Shown: positions 32,541 through 36,690 of the stretch, in pieces
How the letters are laid out: every line of letters starts with the position of its first letter
How positions within the stretch are numbered: position 1 is the stretch's first letter
Assembly (NCBI GenBank): GCA_025351385.1
Contig: JANXWA010000028.1
Location: 1-64,000, forward strand
Origin: Acidimicrobiales bacterium
GTDB taxonomy: Bacteria > Actinomycetota > Acidimicrobiia > Acidimicrobiales > RAAP-2
Length of the DNA stretch: 64,000 bases
Reading direction: 5' to 3'
Notes under the pieces: generated by a model
What the model saw: the letters and a program-made list of their open reading frames with translations, nothing else
The model's database searches: none
Told to the model about the DNA's origin: nothing
Position numbers and translations under genes: made by a program

Positions 32541-32810
32541 CTAACTCGACGAGTCGGTGCCGTCCAATTCGCCGAACTCGGCCTCGTAGGCTTTCAGACT
32601 TTCGACGTAGCCCGCGATGTCACTCTCGGTCGTGCCCTTCGCCCGCTCGGTCTGCAGGAGGTAGGCCGCAAGGCCCAACTGGCGCAGTACTCCGTCGGCC
32701 GCCCGCTTCGCCTGGACCTCACCGACCTTCGCCTGGCCCTTTTGGGCCGCATCCTTGGCGGCCGCGGCCGCAACCGATGCCTGTTCTTTCACCTTGTCCA
32801 TGAATCCCAT
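32541..32810 (-). CDS. Small alanine/lysine-rich helical protein
   Basis: 89 residues. The N-terminus GFMDKVKEQASVAAAAAKDAAQKGQAKV is a likely amphipathic or coiled helix, followed by AKRAADGVLRQLGLAAYLLQTERAKG and an acidic, helical tail ending in serines. This pattern is common in actinobacterial small proteins of unknown role. No signal peptide or membrane helix. ATG 32810 has a strong AAGGAGG. Monocistronic. Confidence 0.75.
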   Translation of the reverse strand: MGFMDKVKEQASVAAAAAKDAAQKGQAKVGEVQAKRAADGVLRQLGLAAYLLQTERAKGTTESDIAGYVESLKAYEAEFGELDGTDSSS

Positions 32811-33000
32811 GGGATCCTCCTTGGGGTCGCCTACTTTCACCATACCGCTTCGGCTCGTGGCCCAGTCGAGAGGCGAGACGCGTCGCTCGAGCAACATGAC
32901 CTGCGCTCGAGCGTCGCAAGGACGTAGTCGACCGTAGGGCCGAAGGTCACATATGGCCGGTCGACGAGGTCGGTTGGGACGTCGCGCATTTCGCCCGTCG

Positions 33001-33006
33001 TAGACT
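33001..33006 (+). promoter_or_regulatory. Leaderless -10 hexamer before the malic-enzyme leader ORF
   Basis: TAGACT, 6-nt gap TCAGTC, then ATG 33013 of a 20-codon ORF. It would be the promoter of the malic-enzyme transcript. Confidence 0.5.
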
Positions 33007-33012
33007 TCAGTC

Positions 33013-33075
33013 ATGTCCTGCGTCAACGTCGTCGCCGTCCTTTGCGCGACCGGCGGCGGGCATATCGACCAGTAA
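33013..33075 (+). CDS. 20-codon leader ORF upstream of the malic enzyme
   Basis: The frame runs from an ATG that sits exactly 6 nt after TAGACT and ends TAA 13 nt before the malic-enzyme ATG. The peptide is 20 residues, with two Cys (MSC near the start, VLC at residue 11) and a Thr-Gly-Gly-Gly stretch. Its stop lies by AAGGA, the ribosome site of the malic-enzyme gene, so its translation could gate that gene. No homologue is recognised. Confidence 0.45.
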   Translation: MSCVNVVAVLCATGGGHIDQ

Positions 33076-33088
33076 GGACCAGATTTCC

Positions 33089-34474
<1,386 letters not shown>

Positions 34475-34524: not shown

Positions 34525-36690
34525 ATGCTCGAACGATGGACACGGGCGGTAGTCCACTACCGCGCCGTCGTGATCGCCGCCTGGGTGCTGGTGGTGGTCC
34601 TGGGACTGCTCTCGGGGTCGCGACTGACCGGACTTCTCTCGACGTCGCTGTCGGTGCCGGGGAGTGGGTCGGCCCAGGCCGACGCGATCCTGGCGCAACA
34701 CTTTGGCGAGAACGTCGAAGGGACCTTCACCGTGGTCCTCGTGTTCAACCGGGCGTCCGAACCTCAGATCCGGGGCCTCGAGGCGAGCATCGACGCCGCC
34801 GCGAGTGCAATACCGACGGCCCACGTCATCGCCGAGAAGGCCGTGGGCGGAGTGCTCTACGTAAACATCGCCACGTCACTGAACCTCATTCACGCTTCGG
34901 CCCAGACCGGACCGTTGCGCGATGCCTTGTCGGCTCAGCACCTGCCTAACGCGCTCGTCACCGGCCCGCCAGCGTTGAACCACGACCTCGCCCCGGTGCT
35001 CTCGGGTGACCTGCGCCGAGGTGAGGCCGTCGCGTTGGGGCTGGCGTTGGTGCTCCTGATCGCCGTACTAGGCCTCTGTTGGGCCGTCCTGGTCCCCTTC
35101 CTCGTCGCCGGAGCCACAGCCGCCGGGTCGATCGCGATCGTCTACCTATTGGCCCAGCACTTCCTCATGGTGCTCTACATCCCCAACGTGATCGAACTGA
35201 TCGGGCTCGGCCTGGCGATCGACTACTCGCTCCTCATCGTCCATCGCTTCCGGGGCGAGATCGCCGTCGACGGCGTCACCGTCGAGAACGCCGTCGTCGC
35301 GACGATGGCGACCGCCGGGCGCACGATCTCCCTCTCATCGCTGACGGTCGCCATCGGCCTCGCCACGTTGTTCCTCGTCCCGGTGACCTTCGTTCGCTCA
35401 CTGGGTGCGGCCGGTCTCGTCGTGCCCCTCGTCGCGCTCTGCGCGGCACTCACCCTGCAGCCGGCCCTGCTCTCACTGCTCGGGCGACGTGGCGTGCGAC
35501 CGGTCGGGGTGAAGGGCTTACTGGGAGGGCGTGACTCGCCCGGGGGGATGTGGACGGGGATCGTCCGTTTCGTGCTTCGCCGACCGGTCGCGGTTCTCGC
35601 CACGTCGACCGTGGTGCTCGCCCTCGGCGCCACGTCGGCCCTGTGGCTGCAACTGACTCCCGGCTCGGTCGTGGCGGTGCCCCAGTACCTCGAGTCGGCC
35701 CACGCGCTCTCGGTGGTCGCGAACCGCATCGGACCGGCGCTGATCACGCCCAACGAGGTCGTCGTCGACCTGGGACGCGCGCACCTCGCCAACCGTCCGG
35801 CGATGAAGGCGGCGAAGCTGAAGCTGGCCGAGGCGATCCTGCACTACCCCGAGGTGTTCGCCGTCGCCATCGACACGAAGCCCCCCTTCGTCGACGTGAC
35901 CGGTCGCTACGAGCAGATCTTCGTCTTCGGTCGTCACGAGTTCGGCGCCGCGGCCTCCCAGCAACTCGTCCACGCGCTTCGCGAGACTTACCTCCCGGCC
36001 TCAACGTTCCCGCCGGGCACCCGGATCTTTCTCGGGGGGCCGGCGGCCCAGGGGGTCGACTTCCTGCGCACCGTCTACGGGGTCTTTCCGTGGCTGGTGT
36101 TGCTCGCGCTCGCGCTGGCCTACCTCGTGCTCGTGCGGGCCTTTCGCTCGGTGCTATTGGCCCTGGTCGCCGTGGTGCTCGACCTGGTCTCGGTCGCTGT
36201 CGCCTACGGCCTGATGGTGGTGGTCTTTCGCTTCGGCGTCGGATCGGCGCTCGTCGGGTCGTATCACGTCAGCCAGATCGAGGGCTGGGTCCCGGTCTTC
36301 CTCTTCGCCATGCTCTTCGGACTCTCGATGGACTACGAGGTCTTCATTGTCGCGCGGATGCGCGAGTCATGGGACGCCGGCGCGCGCAACCACGAGGCCA
36401 TCACGGCCGGTCTGGCCCACACCGGGGGAGTGGTCAGCGCGGCCGCCGTCATCATGGTGGGGGCGCTAGGAGGTCTGGTCTTCGGTCACGTCGCGGGACT
36501 GCAGGAACTGGGCGTGGGCCTCGCCCTGGGGGTGCTGATCGACGCGACGATCGTGCGAGGACTGCTGTTGCCCGCGGTGATGGCCCTGCTCGGCCGTTGG
36601 AACTGGTGGCTGCCCGCGACGGTGGCCCGACTGGTCCACGCAAAAGCCTCGCCCCTCGAGGAACGAGGGGCGAGGCCAGTGCTGAGTTGA
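34525..36690 (+). CDS. MMPL-family RND transporter
   Basis: 721 residues with 11-12 hydrophobic helices in the MMPL pattern: one helix near residue 20 (VIAAWVLVVVLGLLSG), an extracytoplasmic domain, a five-helix block from about 170 (VALGLALVLLIAVLGLCWAV), a second soluble domain, and a second helix block from about 515. The motif GLGLAIDYSLLIVHRFRGE and its C-terminal counterpart FGLSMDYEVFIVARMRESW are the paired D-Y segments that carry the proton-relay residues in this family. It likely exports a lipid or lipid-linked molecule. Leaderless start. The last codons encode a GC-rich hairpin shared with the converging gene. Confidence 0.92.
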   Translation: MLERWTRAVVHYRAVVIAAWVLVVVLGLLSGSRLTGLLSTSLSVPGSGSAQADAILAQHFGENVEGTFTVVLVFNRASEPQIRGLEASIDAAASAIPTAHVIAEKAVGGVLYVNIATSLNLIHASAQTGPLRDALSAQHLPNALVTGPPALNHDLAPVLSGDLRRGEAVALGLALVLLIAVLGLCWAVLVPFLVAGATAAGSIAIVYLLAQHFLMVLYIPNVIELIGLGLAIDYSLLIVHRFRGEIAVDGVTVENAVVATMATAGRTISLSSLTVAIGLATLFLVPVTFVRSLGAAGLVVPLVALCAALTLQPALLSLLGRRGVRPVGVKGLLGGRDSPGGMWTGIVRFVLRRPVAVLATSTVVLALGATSALWLQLTPGSVVAVPQYLESAHALSVVANRIGPALITPNEVVVDLGRAHLANRPAMKAAKLKLAEAILHYPEVFAVAIDTKPPFVDVTGRYEQIFVFGRHEFGAAASQQLVHALRETYLPASTFPPGTRIFLGGPAAQGVDFLRTVYGVFPWLVLLALALAYLVLVRAFRSVLLALVAVVLDLVSVAVAYGLMVVVFRFGVGSALVGSYHVSQIEGWVPVFLFAMLFGLSMDYEVFIVARMRESWDAGARNHEAITAGLAHTGGVVSAAAVIMVGALGGLVFGHVAGLQELGVGLALGVLIDATIVRGLLLPAVMALLGRWNWWLPATVARLVHAKASPLEERGARPVLS
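36646..36676 (-). terminator. Intrinsic terminator of the TIG-repeat gene inside the MMPL coding end
   Basis: GCCTCGCCCCTCG (36646-36658) and CGAGGGGCGAGGC (36664-36676) form a perfect 13-bp stem with loop AGGAA. On the minus strand it is followed by TTTT, so it terminates the gene whose stop is at 36701. It overlaps the last codons of the MMPL gene on the plus strand. Confidence 0.8.

Follow-up and report, generated by a model that had tools for sequence, protein, structure and literature searches.

Organization of the malic enzyme locus

The analysis of the window, i.e., the whole stretch of 64,000 nucleotides, disclosed a malic enzyme gene preceded by a short open reading frame, hereafter micro-ORF (Table 1). 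The start codon of the malic enzyme gene, at 33089, is the first ATG, GTG or TTG in its frame after the preceding stop, and the gene has its own Shine-Dalgarno-like (SD) site. The micro-ORF opens six bases after a putative -10 box; a 292-kb sample of this genome shows an enrichment of this spacing at gene starts (see below). Its stop codon (TAA, 33073-33075) is located within the TAAGGA ribosome site, and 13 nt (33076-33088) separate it from the malic enzyme ATG. The geometry described by the sequence-only reading (TAGACT-N6-ATG, 20 codons, a stop in the ribosome site, 13 nt to the malic enzyme ATG) proved to be exact, and the two cysteines and the TGGG motif that it had pointed out are present in the peptide. 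By size and placement, the micro-ORF belongs to the ORFs of 5-50 codons that stop upstream of the following gene or right at its start; it has no RTGA overlap with the malic enzyme start, its stop codon beginning at -16. A strict sigma-70 scan of the region 32700-33300, which requires a -35 hexamer, did not find a promoter, so that the promoter is called from the -10 box by itself. No RNA families or tRNAs were found in the window.

The gene following the malic enzyme is an MMPL gene, whose own ATG is preceded by a TANNNT at N6. On the + strand of the window, predicted genes at 34525, 41060, 41730, 53181, and 60696 have a TANNNT exactly six bases before the ATG, and their mRNAs are likely to be leaderless.

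Table 1. Features of the malic enzyme locus (window coordinates).
Feature	Position	Strand	Basis
-10 box TAGACT, malic enzyme promoter (predicted)	33001-33006	+	TANNNT in all 30 clade leaders
N6 spacer, -10 box to ATG	33007-33012	+
Transcript start, A of ATG (predicted)	33013	+	Spacing
Predicted leaderless micro-ORF, 20 codons plus TAA, MSCVNVVAVLCATGGGHIDQ	33013-33075	+	ORF reading
AAGGA Shine-Dalgarno-like site of the malic enzyme gene	33074-33078	+	Overlaps the micro-ORF TAA
Malic enzyme gene, 461 aa	33089-34474	+	Pfam PF00390 (malic) and PF03949 (Malic_M)

Leaderless signal in the genome

The 292-kb sample, roughly 13% of the genome, was made up of the window and 12 other stretches and contained 255 genes predicted with a home-made codon-score script. 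A TANNNT precedes the candidate gene starts at N6 in 31/255 cases and at N7 in 7/255, the other spacers accounting for 0-7 each; with so strong a signature at gene starts, leaderless initiation looks common in the sampled part of the genome. The level of chance was evaluated by counting the short ORFs that open after a TANNNT and stop within -20 to +4 of a candidate gene start. The same 292 kb and 255 genes contained a single such ORF at N6, which is the malic enzyme micro-ORF itself, and none at N7; the counts for the other spacers were 0-4. Judged from its own genome alone, the window micro-ORF is not above chance. The idea of a common device of this genome found no support, with one case among 255 predicted genes in the 13% sample.

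Recurrence of the start codon in related leaders

A malic enzyme match was present in 70 of the 99 genomes of the genus, that of the window included. The sequences upstream of 68 of these genes (leaders, numbered L) were used, leaving out a distant match (G104) and a leader with only 16 nt of upstream sequence (L131). A -10 box could be assigned in 61/68 leaders, i.e., in all but L027, L124, L139, L142, L143, L144, and L151. The boxes were hand-picked from a scored list: in L016 and L121, TTACAT was chosen over the better-scoring TACATT, which would put a GTG at N6, and in L123 the upstream one of two equal boxes was taken. For L016 and L121, the malic enzyme start was likewise a manual choice, the ATG lying two codons further upstream being taken. 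In a protein tree obtained with a quick method, the window (L001) falls in a crown clade of 31 rows, which without L139 gives 30 leaders. A TANNNT was assigned in all of them (TTACAT in two), its first and last T being invariant.

Two kinds of column counts were made, one with row-wise offsets, which lean towards the start codon, and the other anchored at the -10 box and unadjusted. In the latter, 18 of the 30 clade leaders, window included, carry an ATG or GTG at N7 (14) or N6 (4); the best pair of adjacent offsets containing neither N6 nor N7 reaches 7/30. Over all 61 leaders, the ATG/GTG counts were 14 at N7, seven at both N4 and N13, five at both N8 and N19, and four at N6. A neutral simulation was run on the tree with an RTG fixed at the root, one offset, equal base frequencies, and no indels. 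The probability that at least 14 of the 30 tips retained it was 0.0008 at scale 5 and 0.0001 at scale 7, and 18 tips were reached in 0 of 20,000 runs at either scale. At the slower scale 3, the probability was 0.038 for at least 14 tips and 0.0054 for at least 18. Fitch steps numbered 10.85 in the observed leader, compared with simulated means of 9.0 (scale 5) and 11.5 (scale 8); the real leaders thus evolve faster than at scale 3 and slightly faster than at scale 5. These comparisons indicate that, across the genus, the start codon recurs above chance in the clade of the window.

In a weighted set of 11 rows, all free of length changes and not including L024 (L146, with GTG, and L006, with AGC, being printed but unweighted), the start-codon columns showed A/G/T at the first position, T at 0.95, and G at 1.0, while many leader columns were at about 0.5; three further single columns, at -40, -19, and -5, were fully conserved.

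Twelve of the 30 leaders lack an ATG/GTG at N6/N7. Five of them (L003, L112, L113, L114, and L116), forming a subclade close to the window, have GCG at N6, and L115 has GTA there; at N7, GAG is found in L120, GCG in L006, and ACG in L024; the remaining ones are L004, L010, and L146. In nine of the 12, a single substitution would give an ATG or GTG at an offset chosen by the author, which fits a loss of the start codon without proving it. L010 (TTG at N5) and L146 (GTG at N4) have a start 86 nt before the malic enzyme ATG and open to an ATGA; both were kept out of the 18 ORFs. Outside the clade, a GTG at N8 occurs in L126, L127, L149, and L150 with varying endings, and it looks incidental.

At larger distances, scanning for a start at TANNNT-N6/N7 gave no such ORF in any of 80 malic enzyme loci from genome contigs (the best 80 of 593, one of which, L051, is congeneric), nor in any of 12 loci from other families of the order; in the latter scan, L161 was left out (no upstream sequence) and L029 and L030 were judged by eye only. 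In 6 of 14 same-order genomes from other families (L029, L030, L152-L160, and L162-L164), it is a malic enzyme start codon that follows a -10 box at N7, and the gene may be leaderless there.

Probable coupling to the malic enzyme start

The relationship between the micro-ORF and the malic enzyme gene takes different forms in the 18 ORFs. Thirteen end in an ATGA overlapping the malic enzyme start (L002, L007, L008, L009, L011, L012, L013, L014, L016, L119, L122, L123, and L147), and that of L125 ends in a TAATG at the same place, which brings the overlap to 14/18. The stop codon (TAA) lies inside the SD site in the window and in L111, the ORF of L121 has an early stop, and that of L005 continues in frame into the malic enzyme. 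In 25 chosen leaders, the stops in the three phases numbered 28, 7, and 24, the lowest value being that of the coupled frame; the count excludes L003, L004, and L112-L116 of the clade and includes the outsiders L128 and L132. An open frame is unsurprising in each leader taken individually (shuffle probability 0.21-0.73), and the low count in the coupled phase is supporting evidence only, the frames being short and likely and the rows related.

The alignment of L001, L002, and L111 has kept the -10 box, the start-codon TG, the identical segment GTAAGGACC, and most of the malic enzyme start region, the leader between these parts being largely diverged; relative to the window, L002 has a 2-nt gap just before GTAAGG. 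L014 and L125 show by eye no clear SD site before the malic enzyme start, though their micro-ORFs overlap it (ATGA and TAATG, respectively), and reinitiation may be the main route to the malic enzyme in these two genomes. The malic frame of L009 (draft genome G028) contains one internal TAG by the count of the search tool, which may be an assembly error or mark a pseudogene.

Proposed mechanism and alternative explanations

We consider it, on balance, probable that the malic enzyme mRNA begins at or near the ATG at 33013 and that the micro-ORF is translated as a leaderless ORF and aids the initiation of the malic enzyme. The 5' end of the mRNA would coincide with this ATG or lie within a base or two of it; a 70S ribosome could bind this bare end directly and translate the micro-ORF as far as the TAA embedded in the SD site of the malic enzyme, 13 nt before its ATG. 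By terminating there, it would favor initiation either by reinitiating or by raising the local ribosome density. The form found in the window probably descends from an ancestor with the ATGA/TAATG overlap, still present in most of the relatives bearing the start codon. What appears to have been kept is the leaderless start, the spacing, and the frame that delivers ribosomes to the malic enzyme start, rather than the peptide. The geometry, the recurrence of the start codon, the variable peptide, and the overlap in relatives can be read in the sequences; from them we infer the transcript start, the translation, the coupling, the direction of change, and the persistence of function in the window's copy. 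In particular, the step from translation of this copy to an effect on the malic enzyme would follow by extension.

The sequence-only reading had proposed either translational coupling or attenuation. Leaderless initiation with coupling is supported by the comparison, in which the start codon, the distance separating it from the -10 box, and, in 14/18 ORFs, the malic enzyme overlap recur, and by the strong leaderless signature in the sampled part of the genome. Attenuation by the peptide is not supported, the peptide of the nearest relative L002 (MSSVGIAVVRSTSDPRLYNVRTRLL) having neither cysteines nor the TGGG. On the available alignments, the micro-ORF peptide is not conserved: the conservation of the leader has no codon-position pattern (0.61/0.66/0.58 bits, 11 rows), the peptides fail, by eye, to align across clades, and that of the window has no Pfam match. 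When an alignment with relatives was searched for the frame-disrupting changes against which the sequence-only reading was to be judged, these were found for the peptide; the architecture stood in part, its strict form being absent in 12/30 leaders. It is very improbable that the peptide is itself a functional small protein. An excess of synonymous changes is seen in some close pairs, namely L012/L122 (pS 0.42 against pN 0.15, with 8 synonymous and 9 nonsynonymous changes), L013/L122 (0.37 and 0.17), and L009/L147 (0.16 and 0.08), but nonsynonymous changes dominate in L007/L119 (0 synonymous/6 nonsynonymous), L147/L120 (1/10), and L014/L125 (2/9). Peptide-level selection was discarded, the eight close pairs, mutually non-independent, showing no consistent synonymous excess. 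Harder still to credit is a cysteine-sensing attenuator like the polycysteine leaderless ORFs of mycobacteria, even if the leaderless geometry and the two Cys codons of the window recall it. The 18 peptides contain 0-2 cysteines each, none of them contiguous (the L005 count covers the stretch ahead of the malic enzyme start), and those of L002 and L111 contain none; malic enzyme, moreover, is not a cysteine gene. No terminator-like site, and hence no terminator hairpin separating the leader ORF from the gene, was found in 32700-33300, and the window leader folds no better than its shuffles (z 0.44), as is the case for 6/6 leaders tested (z from -0.41 to 1.07). With no terminator, no unusual structure, and no conserved cysteines, the attenuator was dropped; since none of the six folds reveals a leader structure, structure does not explain why coupling would be needed.

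The two other alternatives concern the nucleotide sequence and its history. In the lineage of the window, the ORF might be a decayed, neutral remnant, the malic enzyme being now made from its own SD site. We regard this as unlikely, although it deserves appreciable weight: in the nearest clade, only 4/11 rows have an ATG/GTG at N6/N7 and three different endings coexist (stop in the SD site in L001 and L111, ATGA in L002, in-frame fusion in L005), the two nearest leaders differ by the 2-nt gap, and the single-genome control is at chance. Against it, the start triplet and the spacing from the -10 box are intact in L001, L002, and L111, in leaders otherwise much diverged. The conserved TG could otherwise be part of a promoter element or an operator located where the transcript starts, the ORF being incidental. 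The G at the third position is indeed kept also in the GCG, ACG, and GAG variants, and some leaders look constrained at the nucleotide level, those of L012 and L013 differing at 2/78 sites against a malic enzyme synonymous value of 0.49; yet the first base of the triplet is G, A or T and never C in the 30 row-wise adjusted rows, as in start codons, and stops are scarce in the coupled phase, so that we hold such an element to be improbable. Some other constraint on the start triplet is nevertheless possible, given the G kept in these variants and the three other conserved columns. The likeness of the L012 and L013 leaders (about 90 nt before the malic enzyme ATG) might reflect either nucleotide-level constraint or leader exchange; by eye, the sequence upstream of their -10 box has diverged.

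A further extension of leaderless translation of the micro-ORF, quite unlikely in our opinion, is that in this clade the malic enzyme receives most of its ribosomes by leaderless loading, its output following how initiation is divided between the leaderless and the SD-led mode. This division would reflect growth versus stress, with no peptide code involved, and the micro-ORF would preserve the leaderless mode of malic enzyme expression of the order in a genus where the promoter is located further upstream.

Comparison with known systems

In Mycobacterium smegmatis, leaderless initiation reportedly requires an RTG at the transcript start, which is also sufficient for it, and in mycobacteria small ORFs coupled through RTGA are over-represented and the coupling can persist without conservation of the peptide (PMC4633059). 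The combination of leaderless loading and coupling proposed here follows the interpretation given there for mycobacteria. In Mycobacterium tuberculosis, most newly found ORFs are reportedly outside purifying selection (PMC9094748), and the window's copy may be translated by chance.

The mycobacterial leaderless small ORFs (Shell et al. 2015, PMC4633059) share with the present ones an RTG at the 5' end (here predicted) and a placement that is kept while the peptide is not; the window ORF, which stops before the gene, resembles their uORF class, and the RTGA overlap in 13/18 ORFs their coupled class. They differ in that the present ORFs belong to another actinobacterial group, have a malic enzyme target, are known from sequence alone, and form a series of 30 leaders with different endings, fusion, and absence. 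The polycysteine leaderless attenuators (Canestrari et al. 2020, as cited in PMC9031893) are, according to that citation, also short leaderless ORFs preceding a metabolic gene; unlike them, the micro-ORF has no contiguous or conserved Cys codons and no cysteine gene downstream. Strict coupling was reported for 13/14 overlapping gene pairs tested in an archaeon and Escherichia coli (PMC6728339); to the termination-reinitiation at ATGA/TGATG overlaps treated in that work corresponds the ATGA of 13/18 ORFs, but here a leaderless ORF of 25-29 codons takes the upstream place, and the window copy has no overlap.

By title or opening of the abstract, none of the literature matches listed, from a collection covering few subscription journals, concerns a leaderless ORF at a malic enzyme; similarly, a search for leaderless transcription start sites in Acidimicrobi gave no match within a coverage outside which most subscription journals lie. 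This kind of device is known from mycobacteria, and what is new is only the gene, a malic enzyme, and the group. If the proposed mechanism is true, a mycobacterial translation device extends to a central-carbon enzyme and to another actinobacterial genus, seen here in draft genomes. The relatives offer a natural series (coupled, with the stop in the SD site, fused, or absent) in which the start codon and the frame recur while the peptide drifts, making it testable that the act of translation, and not the peptide, is selected.
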